Positions 1,102 through 12,752 of a stretch of 64,000 bases of DNA are shown piece after piece. Location: the NCBI GenBank assembly GCA_029265905.1, contig JAJUGR010000003.1, positions 111,556 through 175,555 of the forward strand, read 5' to 3'. The notes beneath the pieces are model-generated. The model was not told where the DNA came from, made no database searches, and worked only from the letters and a program-made list of their open reading frames with translations. Origin of the DNA: Sporomusaceae bacterium (GTDB taxonomy: Bacteria; Bacillota; Negativicutes; Acidaminococcales; JAJUGR01). A program made the position numbers and the translations under genes. Position 1 is the first letter of the stretch, and every line of letters starts with the position of its first letter.

Positions 1102-2904
1102 TTACAGCCGTTTTAACAACGGCAAAGCCACCCCCAACATAGCGGCGTCATCCTGATGATACACCTCTGCATCATCCCGAATAAAAACCAGTACGTCGCC
1201 GAACGTAAAACCGACACCGACTAGCTCCTCGCTTTCGTTGTAAAACAGAGCCGCCTCGCGAACCCGCGTGCCATGGTACCAAAAATACCCCTGGTTGTGG
1301 CCATCGCCTTCATGCCATTTTTCCGACCGCAGGCCCGGAAAGAGCGAATTCCAGCCATGGCTGTCGATCGGCTCCAGCTGATACGCCGAAGAAGAAAAGC
1401 GTTCGCGCATGTCGCGCCGGGATTCGTGCCATTGAAACGGCGACGGCTCATTATAGTTGAAATTAGAGCGCCGCCAACGCTGCGCCAGGTCCCTCCCGCC
1501 AGTCCAGCCCTGTCCAGTTGGCCTTTGCTCCCGCAGCCCGACCGGCCGCCGCAACAGCGCACCTGACTGTTCCAGCCATGCGGCATCCGTGGGTTGATAG
1601 ACCGCGTTGTTGTCCCGGATAAAAATAAAAGCATCGTTCCACAACAAACCGACGCCGGACAATTCGTCGCGGTCATCATAGAACAGCATGGCATCGTAGA
1701 TGCGCTTGCCGCGATACCAAAAAGCGCCATCGGCAGTTTGGCCGCCGTCGTCATGCCAGCGATCCGCATGCAGCCCCGGGAGTTGGCTGTTCCACTGGCG
1801 GTCATACACCGGTCCCAACTGGACATTTGCGGCGGATAACCGCTCGAAAATGGCATATCTGGATTCCCGCCATTGCCAGGGCAGCTTGCCGTCAAAGCTC
1901 GCTGCAATTTGCCGCCAGGCCGGTTCACGATAGGCGTCGTGCAGCCAGTCAAAGCTTTTAAGCCCGGACTGACGGATATCTTTTTGCTGCTGTTCCAGCC
2001 GTTGCTGCTCAGCCAAACGCAATTGTTCCCGCACGATTTCCGCCTGCCGGTTGCGCTCTTCTTCCAGACGCTTCTGCGCTTCCAGCCGTTCTTGCTCTTC
2101 CAGGCGCTTCTGCGCCTCTATCCTTTGTTGTTCCTCCAGTCGCTTTTGCTCAGCGATGCGCTGTTGCTCCGCCAGGCGCTGCTCTTCCGCCAAGCGCGCT
2201 TCCTCGACCCGGCGTTTTTCTTCCGCCTCCAGCCGCTTCTGCGCTTCCAGCCGTTCTTGCTCTTCCAGGCGCTTCTGCTCCTCGATGCGCTGCTCTTGCG
2301 CAAGCCGCGCTTCCTCTACCCGGCGTTTTTCCTCCGCCTCCAGCCGTTTTTGCGCTTCCAACCGTTCTTGCTCTTCCAGGCGCTTCTGCGCCTCTATCCT
2401 CTGCTGTTCCTCCAGTCGCTTCTGCGCCTCGAGCTTCTGCTCCGCCAGACGCTGCTCTTGCGCAAGCCGCGCTTCCTCTACCCGGCGCTTTTCTTCCACC
2501 TCCAGCCGCTTCTGCGCTTCCAGCCGTTCTTGCTCTTCCAAGCGCTGCTGCGCCTCTATCCTCTGCTGTTCCTCCAGGCGCTTCTGCGCCTCGAGCTTCT
2601 GCTGTTCTTCCAGCCGTTGCTGTTCTTCTAAGCGCTTCTGCTCCTCGATGCGCTGCTCTTCCGCAAGTCGCGCTTGCTCCTGCCGCTTCTGTGCCTCGGC
2701 CCGCTCCTGTTCTTTGCGCGCTCGTTCGCGGCGCATCTCTTCCTGCCATTGCCGCCGTTGCTCGTCTTGCCAACGGCGGTATTCCTCCTGTTGCCGCTGC
2801 TCGTCACTTTGAGCCGTAGCTGCCAATAACGGCAGACTAATGCCAGCTTGCATAAGGGTCACCACCAGCGAACAGATAACGATTTTCTGCGACCGTCTCA
2901 TCAT
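1102..2904 (-). CDS. Secreted coiled-coil protein with two WHES/FPGL/FWYRG/FIRD domains (paralogue A)
   Basis: 600 residues. Residues 1-30 look like a signal peptide (MMRRSQ charge, then a hydrophobic stretch ending in LLAATA). Residues about 32-312 are an uninterrupted E/Q/R/K-rich coiled coil made of near-repeats such as RLEEQERLEAQKRLE. Two copies of a C-terminal domain follow (about 328-437 and 487-590), each with the ordered motifs WxES, WNSxxPGL, WHD/WHE, FWYxG, a hydrophobic strand plus acidic turn, and FIRD followed by VYxxxDA. I do not recognise the domain. Paralogues are at 9759-11513 and 11702-12496. It lies between glycogen phosphorylase and the oxidoreductase genes on the same strand. 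GGGGGCG upstream supports the start; the second Met is also possible. Likely exported; function unknown. Confidence 0.85.
   Translation of the reverse strand: MMRRSQKIVICSLVVTLMQAGISLPLLAATAQSDEQRQQEEYRRWQDEQRRQWQEEMRRERARKEQERAEAQKRQEQARLAEEQRIEEQKRLEEQQRLEEQQKLEAQKRLEEQQRIEAQQRLEEQERLEAQKRLEVEEKRRVEEARLAQEQRLAEQKLEAQKRLEEQQRIEAQKRLEEQERLEAQKRLEAEEKRRVEEARLAQEQRIEEQKRLEEQERLEAQKRLEAEEKRRVEEARLAEEQRLAEQQRIAEQKRLEEQQRIEAQKRLEEQERLEAQKRLEEERNRQAEIVREQLRLAEQQRLEQQQKDIRQSGLKSFDWLHDAYREPAWRQIAASFDGKLPWQWRESRYAIFERLSAANVQLGPVYDRQWNSQLPGLHADRWHDDGGQTADGAFWYRGKRIYDAMLFYDDRDELSGVGLLWNDAFIFIRDNNAVYQPTDAAWLEQSGALLRRPVGLREQRPTGQGWTGGRDLAQRWRRSNFNYNEPSPFQWHESRRDMRERFSSSAYQLEPIDSHGWNSLFPGLRSEKWHEGDGHNQGYFWYHGTRVREAALFYNESEELVGVGFTFGDVLVFIRDDAEVYHQDDAAMLGVALPLLKRL
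1990..2800. repeat. Degenerate tandem coding repeats of the coiled coil (paralogue A)
   Basis: The DNA is a run of imperfect repeats encoding (E/Q)(E/A)QxRLE units, with almost identical blocks such as cttctgcgcctc and cttgctcttccaggcg recurring many times. The strong codon pattern leaves long open frames on the opposite strand (for example 1873-2631 +), which are shadows. Such repeats are prone to expansion, contraction and assembly collapse, so the coiled-coil length here should be regarded as provisional. Confidence 0.85.
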
Positions 2905-6416: not shown

Positions 6417-7151
6417 TCAGTATCCCAGCTTGCCCAAAAAATACGGCATCTGCACACGCCACCAAGGCCAGTCATGGGCGGCGTCGTGTCCCCAAATATC
6501 AACCCACGCCGGGATCCCCTTCGCTTCAAACAGCGCTTTTAACGCGTAGGTATCGCGCAACGTCTCCTCTTCCCACGCGCCTTGTCCGGAACACACGACA
6601 ATCTGGCTGTGCCGCAGCCGATCGAGGATCACCGGATCATTGAGGTTGGGCAAATAATGCAGCGGACTGTTGTAGTAGAGTTCGCTGTCCATGTAGTCGC
6701 CAACACTGAACCGCAGGGAATAAACGCCGCTGAGCGCGATGGCGGCGTCAAACACGCCGGTATGCTTCAACAGGAAGTTGATGGCGTGAAAAGCGCCCAA
6801 ACTGCAGCCGGTGGCCATGAACAGGTGATGCTGCGAGCGATAGCGGATGTAGGGCGTCAATTCATGCAGGATGTAACGCTCGAAGGCGGCATGGCGGGTG
6901 ATGCGCTGCTGATGGGGAATCGCCTGGTTCAGCCAGCTCTCCTGATCCAAGCTGGAGACAGTGAACAACTGGATCCTGCCAGCGTCTAAAAATGGCCGGC
7001 AAGCCTCCACCATGCCAAAATCCTCATATTCGAAAAATGAACCGCCGGAACTAGGAAAGACCACTACCGGTTTTCCCGCGTGTCCGTAGACCTTGAATTC
7101 CATGTCGCGGCCGACCGCCTCGCTCCAGTTGCGGTGATACTCGACATTCAT
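6417..7151 (-). CDS. Esterase-fold protein (COG4947-like alpha/beta hydrolase)
   Basis: 244 residues. It has an N-terminal strand pair with VVVFPSSGGSFFEYEDFGM, a nucleophile elbow ATGCSLGAFHAINFL and a late GHDAAHDWPWWRVQMPYFL that supplies His. This resembles uncharacterised esterase/PHB-depolymerase-superfamily proteins often found near ATP-grasp genes (recollection of the family, not checked). The start at 7151 is favoured by AAGGGTGGAG just upstream; the longer ORF start at 7193 overlaps the stop of a 36-codon ORF as TAATG. Its 3' end faces the plus-strand esterase. Probably acts in the cytoplasm on the product of the ATP-grasp pair; unproven. Confidence 0.82.
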   Translation of the reverse strand: MNVEYHRNWSEAVGRDMEFKVYGHAGKPVVVFPSSGGSFFEYEDFGMVEACRPFLDAGRIQLFTVSSLDQESWLNQAIPHQQRITRHAAFERYILHELTPYIRYRSQHHLFMATGCSLGAFHAINFLLKHTGVFDAAIALSGVYSLRFSVGDYMDSELYYNSPLHYLPNLNDPVILDRLRHSQIVVCSGQGAWEEETLRDTYALKALFEAKGIPAWVDIWGHDAAHDWPWWRVQMPYFLGKLGY

Positions 7152-7348: not shown

Positions 7349-8536
7349 GTGAACTTCGTCTTTTTATCACCTTATTTCCCCACAAACTATTATCGCTTCT
7401 GCGTGGCTTTGAAGCGGGCCGGAGCGAACGTGCTGGGGATAGGCGATCTCCCATACGACCAGCTGAATAACGAGTTGAAAGCGTCACTGACCGAATACTA
7501 CCGGGTTGATGACCTGCACTTCTTCGACCAGCTCCGCGCCGCCTGCGAGCACTTCACCCGCAAATACGGCCCCATCAACCGCCTCGAGTCCCATAACGAA
7601 TACTGGATGGAAACCGACGCCCGCCTGCGCAGCGAATTCAACATCCCCGGCGTTCAGCACGGCCAGGTCGGCCTCTTTAAATCCAAGCTGCGCATGAAAG
7701 AAACATTTGCCGAGGCCGGCATCGCCGTTGCCGCCGGCACAAGCGTGTTCAACCTGGAGCAGTCGCTGCAGTTTTGCCAAACCTATGGTTACCCGGTCAT
7801 ATTAAAACCGGAAGTCGGCGTCGGCGCTGTGGACACGTATAAAATCGACTCCCCGGCCGAGATGGAAGCGTTTTTTGAACAGCCCCATCATCAGGCTTAC
7901 ATTATCGAACAATTTATCGACGGCCGCATCGAAACCTTTGACGGCTTGGTCGATGCGGCAGGCAACATTGTTTTTTACACTTCCCATGTCTACCAAAACG
8001 GCATTATGGAAATTGTGCGCGACAATCTGAATGCCGCCTTTCATTCGCTGCGGCAAATCCCTGACGACTTGACCGAGGCCGGCCGGCGCACCTTGTCCGC
8101 CTTCGGTCTGCGGGAACGTTTTTTCCATCTGGAATTTTTCCGGCGCCCCGACGGCTCGTTGGTTGGCCTTGAAGCCAATATGCGCCCGCCCGGCGGTCCG
8201 ATCCTTGACATGTTCAATTTTGCCAATGACATTGATATTTACCAGGAATGGGCCAACATGATCGTCCACGGCCGCTTCGCCAACCATATTTACAACCCGC
8301 AATGCCGCAAGTATTTTTGCGGCTTCGCCGGCCGCAAGTTCAACCGCAGCTATGCCTTGAGCCACGAAGCCATCCTGGAACGCTACGGGCGCTTCATCGC
8401 CGCGCACGAGCCGCTGCCGCCGCTTTACAGCACCTCAATGGGTGACTACTTCTACCTGATCCGGTCCGAAGCCTTGTCCGACGTTCAGGAAGTGACGCAG
8501 GCGGTGTTTAAAACAACCGGGGAGGCAAGCGTATGA
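7349..8536 (+). CDS. ATP-grasp ligase, first of a tandem pair
   Basis: 395 residues. It has a Rossmann-like N-terminal domain (VNFVFLSPYFPTNYYRF) and then an ATP-grasp fold: nucleotide-binding lysine in GYPVILKPEVGVGAVDTYK, hinge IIEQFIDGRIETFDGL, and metal-binding acids in FHLEFF and LEANMRPPGG. ATP-grasp enzymes activate a carboxylate as acyl phosphate and join it to an amine, thiol or carboxylate. The GTG at 7349 is chosen because GGGGGG precedes it and the product then aligns with the MNVLFFSPQFP start of its neighbour; the track start at 7325 is 8 codons longer. Stop and next start overlap (ATGA), so the two are translationally coupled. Substrate unknown. Confidence 0.85.
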   Translation: MNFVFLSPYFPTNYYRFCVALKRAGANVLGIGDLPYDQLNNELKASLTEYYRVDDLHFFDQLRAACEHFTRKYGPINRLESHNEYWMETDARLRSEFNIPGVQHGQVGLFKSKLRMKETFAEAGIAVAAGTSVFNLEQSLQFCQTYGYPVILKPEVGVGAVDTYKIDSPAEMEAFFEQPHHQAYIIEQFIDGRIETFDGLVDAAGNIVFYTSHVYQNGIMEIVRDNLNAAFHSLRQIPDDLTEAGRRTLSAFGLRERFFHLEFFRRPDGSLVGLEANMRPPGGPILDMFNFANDIDIYQEWANMIVHGRFANHIYNPQCRKYFCGFAGRKFNRSYALSHEAILERYGRFIAAHEPLPPLYSTSMGDYFYLIRSEALSDVQEVTQAVFKTTGEASV

Positions 8537-9758: not shown

Positions 9759-11513
9759 CTAAAGGACTAATAGCAAAACCAGCAAGCCCACAATCCAGGC
9801 GTCGTTGCGGTGGTGTACTTCCTGGTTATCCCGGATCATGACAAACGTGCCTTCGTGCATGAATCCGACAGCGACCAACTCATCCCAGTCGTCAAAGAAC
9901 AGTACGGCTTCACGGATGCGCGTGCCACGGTACCAAAAGTAGCCCTGGCTGTAGCGGTCGACATCGCGCCACCGGTACGAATGCAAGCCCGGGAACCGGT
10001 CGTTCCATTCCGGGTCGTAGATGGGCTCCATCCAGTATTCGGCGGCCGGGAAACGTTCGAGCATTGCGTAGCGCGACTCATGCCACCGAAACGGCATAGA
10101 TTCATCATACCGGTAATCGCTCCGGCGCCAGTTGTCCGCATAATAGAAGTCATCCTGCCAGTAGTACCGCCGCTCTTCCCGCCAATACGGCCGCTCTTCC
10201 CGCGACAGAATTACAAGCAGCAGCTCGAAGAACCACGCATCATGGTCGTGATGGCGGTGATGGTATACGTCCCAATCATCCCGGATAAAAACAAACACAT
10301 TGTCATGCATGAACCCGATGCCGACCAGTTCGTCCCAGGTATCAAAGAACAAAACCGCATCGCGGATCCGCGTACCACGGTACCAAAAATACCCATGGCT
10401 GTAGCGGTCGTTATCGTGCCACCGGTACGAATGCAGGCCCGGGAACCGGTCGTTCCACTGGCGGTCATGAATGGGCTCCATCCAATATTCAAACGACAAA
10501 AAGCGTTTGCGCAGCGAGTAGCTTGATTCATGCCAGCGGAAAAGGGTCGGCTCTTCGTATCGGTTCACCCGCTGCCAGTTGTCGTCCCGATAGGCGTCAT
10601 GCGACCAGTCATGGCGGGTTCGCTCAGGCCGCCGCTGTTCCTCCCGGCGCCGCTGTTCCTCCCGGCGCCGTTGTTCTTCCCGGCGCTGCTCATCCATTCG
10701 GCGTTGCTGCTCCAGACGCCGCTCATCCTCTCGGCGTTGCGACTGGCGTTGCTCTTCTGCGCGTTGCTGCTCCTCGCGGCGCTGCTGTTCTACACGTTGC
10801 TGCTCTTGCCGTTGGGCTTCAACCCGGCGCTGGTCTTCCTGCCGCTGCCCTTCCACCCGGCGCTGCTCCTCGCGGCGCTGCTGTTCTGCACGTTGCTGTT
10901 CCTCGCGGCGCTGTTGTTCCATCCGTTGCTGCTCTTGCCGTTGGGCTTCAACCCGGCGCTGGTCTTCCTGCCGCTGCCCTTCCACCCGGCGCTGATCCTG
11001 GCGTTGCTGTTCCTCGCGGCGCTGCTGTTCTGCACGTTGCTGTTGTTCCATCCGTTGCTGCTCCTGCCGCTGGACATCAGCCCGGCGCTGGTCTTCCTGC
11101 CGCTGCGCTTCCACTCGGCGCTGGTCTTGACGTTGCTGTTCCTGCCGGCGTTGTTCCTGACGCTGCTGCTCTGCACGCTGCTGCTCCTCGCGCCGCTGCT
11201 GTTCCCACCGTTGCTGTTCTTCGCGGCGTTGCTCCTGCCACTGCCGGTGCTGCTCCTCGCGACGCTGCTGCTCCTCGCGCCGCTGGCCTTCCCGTCGCTG
11301 CTCCTGTTCCTGTTCCCGCCGCTGTGCTTCTCTGCGCTGTTCCTGTTCCCTGCGCTGTTGCTCCGCCTGGCGCTGCTGCTCCTCGCGGCGCTGTTGAGTT
11401 TGCTGCGCCTCGTTGCTGACCGGCGCCATTTCCAACAGCGGAGCATATACCCCGCCTTGCATCAAACTGACCACCAGAGAACAGACGATCGCTTTTTGCG
11501 CACGTTTATTCAT
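9759..11513 (-). CDS. Secreted coiled-coil protein with two WHES/FPGL/FWYRG/FIRD domains (paralogue B)
   Basis: 584 residues from the ATG at 11513, chosen for its GGAGGGGAGCATT ribosome site; the track ORF extends 42 codons into a riboswitch. Residues 1-27 (MNKRAQKAIVCSLVVSLMQG...) form a signal peptide like that of paralogue A. Residues about 30-300 are a Q/R/E-rich coiled coil. Two domain copies follow (about 320-430 and 471-584), each with FRWHES, WMEPI, WNDRFPGLHSYRW, GYFWYRGTRIR, AVLFFD-WDEL, VGFM, and IRD with V(Y/H)H. The chain ends in a hydrophobic tail DAWIVGLLVLLLVL. Expression is probably set by the GEMM riboswitch upstream. Function unknown; an adhesion or envelope role is inferred from export, coiled coil and riboswitch. 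Confidence 0.86.
   Translation of the reverse strand: MNKRAQKAIVCSLVVSLMQGGVYAPLLEMAPVSNEAQQTQQRREEQQRQAEQQRREQEQRREAQRREQEQEQRREGQRREEQQRREEQHRQWQEQRREEQQRWEQQRREEQQRAEQQRQEQRRQEQQRQDQRRVEAQRQEDQRRADVQRQEQQRMEQQQRAEQQRREEQQRQDQRRVEGQRQEDQRRVEAQRQEQQRMEQQRREEQQRAEQQRREEQRRVEGQRQEDQRRVEAQRQEQQRVEQQRREEQQRAEEQRQSQRREDERRLEQQRRMDEQRREEQRRREEQRRREEQRRPERTRHDWSHDAYRDDNWQRVNRYEEPTLFRWHESSYSLRKRFLSFEYWMEPIHDRQWNDRFPGLHSYRWHDNDRYSHGYFWYRGTRIRDAVLFFDTWDELVGIGFMHDNVFVFIRDDWDVYHHRHHDHDAWFFELLLVILSREERPYWREERRYYWQDDFYYADNWRRSDYRYDESMPFRWHESRYAMLERFPAAEYWMEPIYDPEWNDRFPGLHSYRWRDVDRYSQGYFWYRGTRIREAVLFFDDWDELVAVGFMHEGTFVMIRDNQEVHHRNDAWIVGLLVLLLVL
10610..11400. repeat. Degenerate tandem coding repeats of the coiled coil (paralogue B)
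   Basis: Imperfect repeats encode Q/R/E-rich units such as REEQQRAEQQR and VEGQRQEDQRR. Several 60-90 base blocks recur nearly unchanged (the block around 10795-10870 is close to that around 10905-10990). Antisense open frames at 10523-11419 and 10530-11537 are by-products. Copy number may vary between strains or be wrong in short-read assembly. Confidence 0.85.
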
Positions 11514-11544
11514 AATGCTCCCCTCCTTGTCTCTTAACGCCTGT

Positions 11545-11573
11545 CGGTTTTGCGTCTGACAAAGACAAAACCG
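11545..11573 (-). promoter_or_regulatory. Hairpin between GEMM aptamer and paralogue B start
   Basis: CGGTTTTG and CAAAACCG pair across a 13-base loop between the aptamer and the ribosome site. It has no following T-run, so it is not a typical terminator. It may be part of the expression platform, because CCTGGC just upstream of it can pair with GCCAGG in the aptamer's 3' strand. Confidence 0.4.
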
Positions 11574-11589
11574 CCAGGTCACAACCGAA

Positions 11590-11680
11590 ATCCGGTGCGG
11601 CCTGGCAGTCATACGCCCTGATCGGGCCTTTAGACCCATGGCTTTGCGTCCTCACCTTTCAGCGAGTTTGCCAATACTAT
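11590..11680 (-). ncRNA. GEMM-I riboswitch (cyclic di-GMP-I class)
   Basis: Read on the minus strand, the sequence has the GEMM-I hallmarks in order: GGCAAAC; a P2 stem CTCGCT/GGTGAG capped by a GAAA tetraloop; the invariant GACGCAAAGCC; a second stem with the tetraloop-receptor halves GTCTAA and GTATGAC; and a closing GCCAGG. This fold binds cyclic di-GMP (a few variants bind cGAMP). It lies 77 bases upstream of the paralogue B start. Paralogues A and C have no such element in their leaders. The 3' aptamer strand GCCAGG can also pair with CCTGGC downstream, a possible switching helix. The ligand is inferred from the class. Confidence 0.88.
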
Positions 11681-11701
11681 ACAGTTCTCTTTTCATCGGC
11701 A

Positions 11702-12496
11702 TCAATGGGCAAGCAGGATTGCCGCCAGGCCCACCAGCCAGGCGTCGCTGCGATGATAAACCTCGTGGTCGTCACGGATAAAAACGAACACATTGTCATA
11801 CATAAACCCGATGCCGACCAATCCGTCCCATTCGTCAAAGTACAACATCAGGACGCGAATGTGGCGGCCATGATACCAAAAATGCCCCAAGTGCCGCCCG
11901 TTGTCGTGCCAGCGGTAGCACCTAAGCCCTGGAAAACGGTCATGCCATGCGCGGTCATCGACCGGTTCCAGCCTGTAGCCGTGCGCAAGGAAGCGATCAT
12001 GCAGCGCGGGCCGCGATTCATGCCAGGCAAACGGCGACGGAGAACGATACATGAAGTAGGTCCGGCGCCAATTTGCGTCGCGGTAAAAATCGTGCGACCA
12101 ATCATGCCGCTTTCGTTCGTCAGGATGGCGATAATCCCGGCGCTGTTGCTCCTGCCATTCGCGCCGTTCTTGCTCCTGCCATTGCCGATGCTGTTCTTCA
12201 CGGCGGCGTTCATCGTCGCGGCGCTGCCGTTCGTTGTGACGCCGCTGCTCCTCGCGGCGTTTGGCATCTTCCCGCCGCCACTGTTCCTTTCTGCGCTCAT
12301 CCTCGCGGTTTTGCCCATCACGCCGCGGGTGGTCCTCTCGCCTTTGCAGCGCCAAGCGGGCATCCTCTTGTTCCATCCGCACAGCCCACGGCTCGCCGTT
12401 CGCCGGCGCCACCTTAGGCGGCGAAGCATCCACCCCACACGGGGCCAAACCAAGCAGCAGAGAATAGACAAGTATCTTATCCAGATTCTTCAACAC
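11702..12496 (-). CDS. Secreted coiled-coil protein with one WHES/FPGL/FWYRG/FIRD domain (paralogue C)
   Basis: 264 residues from the GTG at 12496, which follows GGGGGCGG and gives a proper signal peptide (VLKNLDKILVYSLLLGLAPCG); the ATG at 12535 adds 13 poorly fitting residues. A short R/E/Q-rich helix (about 35-125) is followed by a single domain copy (about 149-264) with FAWHES, YRLEPV, WHDRFPGLRCYRWHD, HFWYHG, VGIGFMYDNVFVFIRDD and EVYH. The tail DAWLVGLAAILLAH is hydrophobic, as in paralogue B. It lies upstream of B on the same strand with the riboswitch between them, so B can be transcribed separately. The gene looks like a compact version of the family. Confidence 0.85.
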   Translation of the reverse strand: MLKNLDKILVYSLLLGLAPCGVDASPPKVAPANGEPWAVRMEQEDARLALQRREDHPRRDGQNREDERRKEQWRREDAKRREEQRRHNERQRRDDERRREEQHRQWQEQERREWQEQQRRDYRHPDERKRHDWSHDFYRDANWRRTYFMYRSPSPFAWHESRPALHDRFLAHGYRLEPVDDRAWHDRFPGLRCYRWHDNGRHLGHFWYHGRHIRVLMLYFDEWDGLVGIGFMYDNVFVFIRDDHEVYHRSDAWLVGLAAILLAH

Positions 12497-12752
12497 ATCA
12501 CACCGCCCCCGTCCGCAAAAATTCGCCAACTTCATTGAGAGCTGCGTTTATCGCCGAATCATCCTTCGCTACTGCCTGTCACAGCTGGCGTATACCAATC
12601 CTATTATCATTGTACACCGTTTTCAGATAAAATTACATATCAGCTCGATAATGCCACTATGTCACTTGTTTGTTTTTACACAACAAAAGGTTTTCTCCGG
12701 CTGCCGAAAGCAATATAATAAGAGTAGATCCCTTTGAAGCGAGGTCCGGATA

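Follow-up and report, generated by a model that had tools for sequence, protein, structure and literature searches.

The window, the whole 64,000-nucleotide stretch of Sporomusaceae bacterium DNA analysed here, encodes three paralogous proteins, A, B and C, and a riboswitch aptamer followed by two hairpins lies between the genes of the latter two. The genes and the copies of the approximately 135-residue domain common to all three proteins are the following.

1102..2904, minus strand: paralogue A, 600 aa, no riboswitch nearby
9759..11513, minus strand: paralogue B, 584 aa, the putatively regulated gene, with a Sec-type N-terminus, a Q/R/E-rich repeat and two copies of the 135-aa Negativicutes domain
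11702..12535, minus strand: paralogue C, 277 aa, upstream neighbour of B on the same strand
9768-10169, 10203-10616, 11705-12109, 1114-1482 and 1552-1953: copies of the ~135-aa domain, each ending in a short hydrophobic segment

The protein family itself is undescribed and uncharacterised. In B, a Sec-like N-terminus is recognizable by eye and no anchor domain is found in Pfam or NCBIfam, so the surface location given in the preliminary description is putative. The repeat occupies a 290-residue segment made up of 29% Q, 28% R and 21% E with 12% hydrophobic residues, and as its heptad power of 0.30 equals the shuffled mean of 0.30, the coiled-coil label given to B in the preliminary description does not hold in the strict sense; the segment is rather a Q/R/E-rich repeat free of heptad periodicity. 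The domain is present in 31 of 381 genomes of the class, with Propionispira, Sporomusa, Pelosinus and Lucifera among its named relatives, and when the contigs of all GTDB genomes were scanned, only Bacillota/Negativicutes records came up. Most of the relatives are short proteins in which a single copy stands behind a signal-peptide-like start, and those closest to C and B are found in the Negativicute MAG CTSoil_073, with 60-62% identity to C. Neither B nor C has a known domain above the curated Pfam/NCBIfam cut-offs or a credible sequence match in the PDB, and no viral relatives of B were found. The structure model of the domain is confident (pLDDT 84) and of mixed alpha/beta type. No structure in the PDB matched its fold with an E-value below 0.2, and the best match in a viral library had 0.1.

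The leader between C and B contains the following elements.

11593..11682, minus strand: c-di-GMP-I (GEMM-I) riboswitch aptamer, full length (Rfam RF01051)
11672, minus strand: specificity base G20, in GGCAAAC (cmscan alignment)
11651..11666, minus strand: aptamer stem P2 with GAAA tetraloop (cmscan alignment; compensatory changes in 3 of 6 pairs among the 11 leaders compared below)
11599..11643, minus strand: aptamer stem P3 with tetraloop receptor
11610..11599, minus strand: P3 3′ strand GACTGCCAGGCC, common to P3 and the terminator
11569..11610, minus strand: terminator-like hairpin that excludes P3 and sequesters C92 (-26.6 kcal/mol, z -5.4)
11558..11570, minus strand: U-rich tail UUUUGUCUUUGUC behind the terminator hairpin (T-tract score 4.85; four other leaders score 4.67-5.64)
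11540..11578, minus strand: second hairpin CCUGGCGGUUUUG...CAAAACCGACAGG, a candidate antiterminator lock that pairs with the terminator 3′ strand and the U tail
11520..11528, minus strand: Shine-Dalgarno sequence AAGGAGGGG of B

The aptamer, by its covariance score and alignment, is a genuine member of the known c-di-GMP-I riboswitch class. The RF01051 match (minus strand, 11682..11593, model positions 1-87 of 87) reaches 64.8 bits, where the gathering score is 35, with an E-value of 2.1e-10 over the window and 4227 Rfam families, and is the sole Rfam hit in the window. The core GACGCAAAGCC at 11650..11640, the GAAA loop, both receptor halves (UCUAAA/GUAUGA) and the stems P1b, P2 and P3 are all present, as is the ligand-contact C92, placed by the alignment at 11597, which bears out the preliminary description of a GEMM-I aptamer with all core elements in front of B. 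Likewise, the claim that such an element precedes B but not A or C stands, since no c-di-GMP riboswitch match was obtained near A, or in a position to serve C, even at E 0.5. The aptamer itself is an ordinary one of a class already known, and its departures from that class are a minimal P1, a longer P3 arm and a location that is probably between two operon genes, not at the 5′ end of a transcript. Position 18 is a U where the consensus has an A, and all P3 pairs are intact except for the outermost one, an A-C mismatch.

The likely ligand can be read from position 20 in the Vc2 numbering, which we take to be the base that separates c-di-GMP binders from those of 3′,3′-cGAMP. Inspection of this base, proposed in the preliminary description, gave a G at 11672, and c-di-GMP is therefore the predicted ligand of the window aptamer. 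The same G rules out for it the cGAMP specificity (A20) of the described GEMM-Ib subclass (PMC6456294, PMC8835794).

The 3′ strand of P3 (GAC-UG-CCA-GGCC) doubles as the 5′ strand of the terminator-like hairpin, where it pairs with the downstream CCUGGCGGUU, and the two pairings are mutually exclusive. The alternative pairing of GCCAGG with CCTGGC noticed earlier is therefore real and forms part of this longer hairpin, although the distance between the two strands is about 22 bases and not a few; the sharing of one strand by the terminator and P3 also strengthens the earlier suggestion of a plausible switch. None of 200 shuffles folded as well as the hairpin at 11610..11569, which was not listed by a generic terminator scan because its stem is bulged. 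The U tail is not continuous, and termination may therefore be incomplete. The second hairpin, also correctly anticipated, follows at 11578..11540 with an energy of -16.3 to -17.4 kcal/mol (z -2.9 in context), and ends 11 nt before the Shine-Dalgarno sequence of B with no clean U run behind it. A stretch in its loop and 3′ arm (11546..11556, GACGCAAAACC) is identical to the aptamer core in 10 of 11 bases, a likeness which may be due to chance or may be the remnant of a duplicated aptamer.

Both folds are conserved in homologous leaders. A search of relatives revealed 25 GEMM-I copies in the single genome of CTSoil_073, and ten of them (L071-L073, L075 and L077-L082) share the window leader almost base for base, with the aptamer, the shared strand TGACTGCCAGGCCGCACCGGAT and the terminator nearly identical. 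Among these ten and the window leader (n=11), the pairs of P1b, P2 and P3 hold in 92.6% of cells, compared to 23-50% when slid, and nine compensatory cells are found among the aptamer pairs; failure of P2/P3 in homologous leaders, put forward earlier as grounds for rejecting the assignment, is thus not observed. The terminator pairs hold in 95.3% of cells with weak covariation, since there is little variation in the shared strand. L071 has a G at the shared base A82, with a C as its partner in both the aptamer and the terminator; however, at the same site only the aptamer partner is changed in L079 and L080 and only the terminator partner in L081, so the covariation is suggestive only. Unlike the window leader, the CTSoil_073 leaders have clean U runs, the second hairpin is not seen in them, and some carry A20. 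Exact copies of the leader signature GACTGCCAGGCYGCWCCGG are confined to the genome studied here and CTSoil_073 among 381 genomes of the class, in which three other hits with one mismatch may be chance. A widespread leader subtype is thereby ruled out.

In RNAfold energies, which leave out tertiary contacts, the ligand and kinetics, the aptamer fold of the growing transcript lies no more than 0.4 kcal/mol from the optimum up to nt 108 and is 7-14 kcal/mol worse at nt 112-125, as the terminator is completed; with the second hairpin formed (nt 145), its cost has dropped from 14.0 to 3.9 kcal/mol, because this hairpin takes the 3′ strand of the terminator, and in the full leader the terminator fold leads once more, by 9.5 kcal/mol. 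The leader thus has, in its folding and predicted termination, the strand-sharing terminator of a transcriptional ON-switch platform. A proven ON switch of this kind is the GEMM-Ib riboswitch of Geobacter metallireducens pilM, in which the terminator and the aptamer cannot form together and the ligand-binding C is taken up into the terminator (PMC9262584). Both of these features are shared by the window leader; in contrast, pilM senses cGAMP, where the G20 of the window predicts c-di-GMP, and the window leader has an extra hairpin behind its terminator. Since the 3′ strand of P3 is the 5′ strand of the terminator, ligand binding should prevent termination, and the layout in common with pilM predicts an ON switch whose second hairpin would act like an antiterminator. 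We therefore regard it as likely that the class I c-di-GMP riboswitch acts as a transcriptional ON switch for B, probably within a two-gene C-B operon. In such a model, at low c-di-GMP the nascent RNA would fold into the hairpin 11610..11569 followed by the U-rich tail, and most polymerases would halt after C. At high c-di-GMP, the ligand would keep P3 closed and GACUGCCAGGCC unavailable to the terminator, the released CCUGGCGGUUUUG and CAAAACCGACAGG would form the second hairpin, re-formation of the terminator would be blocked, and B would be transcribed. C would accordingly be produced regardless of the c-di-GMP level, whereas B would require a high signal.

The placement in an operon follows from the spacing, as 20 nt separate the end of the C stop codon (11702) from the start of the aptamer (11682), so the switch is probably inside a C-B operon with B as its second gene, judging from the sequence. 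The preliminary description had implied that B is an independent c-di-GMP-regulated unit, in which case the leader would be transcribed from a separate promoter near the 3′ end of C. One promoter-like site does lie between C and the aptamer, overlapping the 5′ edge of the latter, TTGATG-18-TATAGT at 11705..11676, with a 9/12 sigma-70-like match, and in CTSoil_073 the first of two tandem aptamers behind a paralogue is accompanied by an intergenic TATAAA, by eye a possible -10 element (L052). However, the start predicted from the site in the window is near 11669, inside the aptamer and beyond G20, so that the RNA would be devoid of G20 and part of P1b and would escape c-di-GMP control, and the region from C to the aptamer has no further promoter-like match. 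Such an arrangement is possible but less probable than the operon.

The direction of the switch could also be the opposite, with the same aptamer working as an OFF or translational switch whose ligand-favoured fold lowers the expression of B. GEMM-I switches are known in both directions, Cd1 being OFF and pilM ON (PMC9262584), and the close approach of the second hairpin to the Shine-Dalgarno sequence with no clean U run after it would suit a translational mechanism. Yet the competition of the aptamer and the terminator for a single strand leads to ON and not OFF, AAGGAGGGG is outside both hairpins, and the equivalent of the terminator hairpin in the ten other leaders ends in U runs, all of which render this direction unlikely. 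Finally, that the aptamer is a degenerate relic with a good score but no switching, and the hairpin simply the terminator of C, appears very improbable, for while its score of 64.8 bits is below those of the two other GEMM-I copies in the genome (72.4 and 76.5 bits), the U tail is interrupted and position 18 is a U, both G20 and C92 and all P3 pairs but the outermost are intact, and the A-C mismatch of that pair recurs in 10 of the 11 leaders and is thus typical of the leader type and not a sign of decay.

The genes behind related leaders associate the predicted ON switch with the cell surface. Of the two further GEMM-I copies in the same genome, the 76.5-bit copy precedes a CAP-domain secreted protein and the 72.4-bit copy a Cache-HAMP protein, apparently a chemotaxis receptor. 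In CTSoil_073, leaders of the same type precede a TPS exoprotein (adhesin) and its ShlB/FhaC-type secretion pore as well as PglD-like and nucleotidyl-transferase (surface-sugar) genes, and other GEMM-I copies of that genome lie in front of genes for a YadA-head protein, CpsB/CapC and a sugar transferase. The link to attachment and motile-sessile decisions drawn in the preliminary description is thus supported by association only, through adhesin, surface-polysaccharide and chemotaxis genes behind other leaders, and is indirect; B may have a role in the sessile state. The same-type leader L081 heads a CTSoil_073 gene cluster with a paralogue in fourth place (L056), and at another locus (L055) the stop codon of a paralogue is followed after 24 nt by a tandem GEMM-I pair (7003-7087 and 7356-7447), the second of the same type. 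Behind this pair is a gene which by eye belongs to a DUF202-like family, and the arrangement resembles that of C and the aptamer in the window.

The predicted ON switch would place an uncharacterised family of secreted repeat proteins in the c-di-GMP regulon of diderm Firmicutes, and offers a testable case of a riboswitch between genes, through which a second messenger would control how much of one paralogue is made relative to the other. The interest, which is moderate, lies in a switch placed between paralogues, in a leader subtype that is private and in a target family not yet described. A more speculative proposal, which we consider doubtful, is that A, B and C form an undescribed Negativicutes family with a secreted domain of a fold unmatched in the PDB, which here and in CTSoil_073 travels with its private GEMM-I ON-switch subtype; in the window, the switch would lie between two genes and let c-di-GMP adjust the amount of the short form (C) relative to the long one with the repeat (B).

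As to the A20 variants, none were found in the genome of the window. In CTSoil_073, aptamers of this GEMM-Ib-like kind (AGCAAAC), predicted cGAMP sensors, occur in L064, L073, L078, L081 and L082, and they appear common in Negativicutes, with up to 25 of 102 genera, some of these matches being chance. The Hypr GGDEF signature NDxxGHxxGS did not occur in any of 30 genomes of the class, among them A20-bearing ones, and the control signature NDxxGHxxGD gave 8-43 matches in each of seven genomes. One of the same-type leaders, on the minus strand near position 1580 of L075, has a C at position 20 (AGCGCAAAC), which is neither the c-di-GMP nor the cGAMP base.
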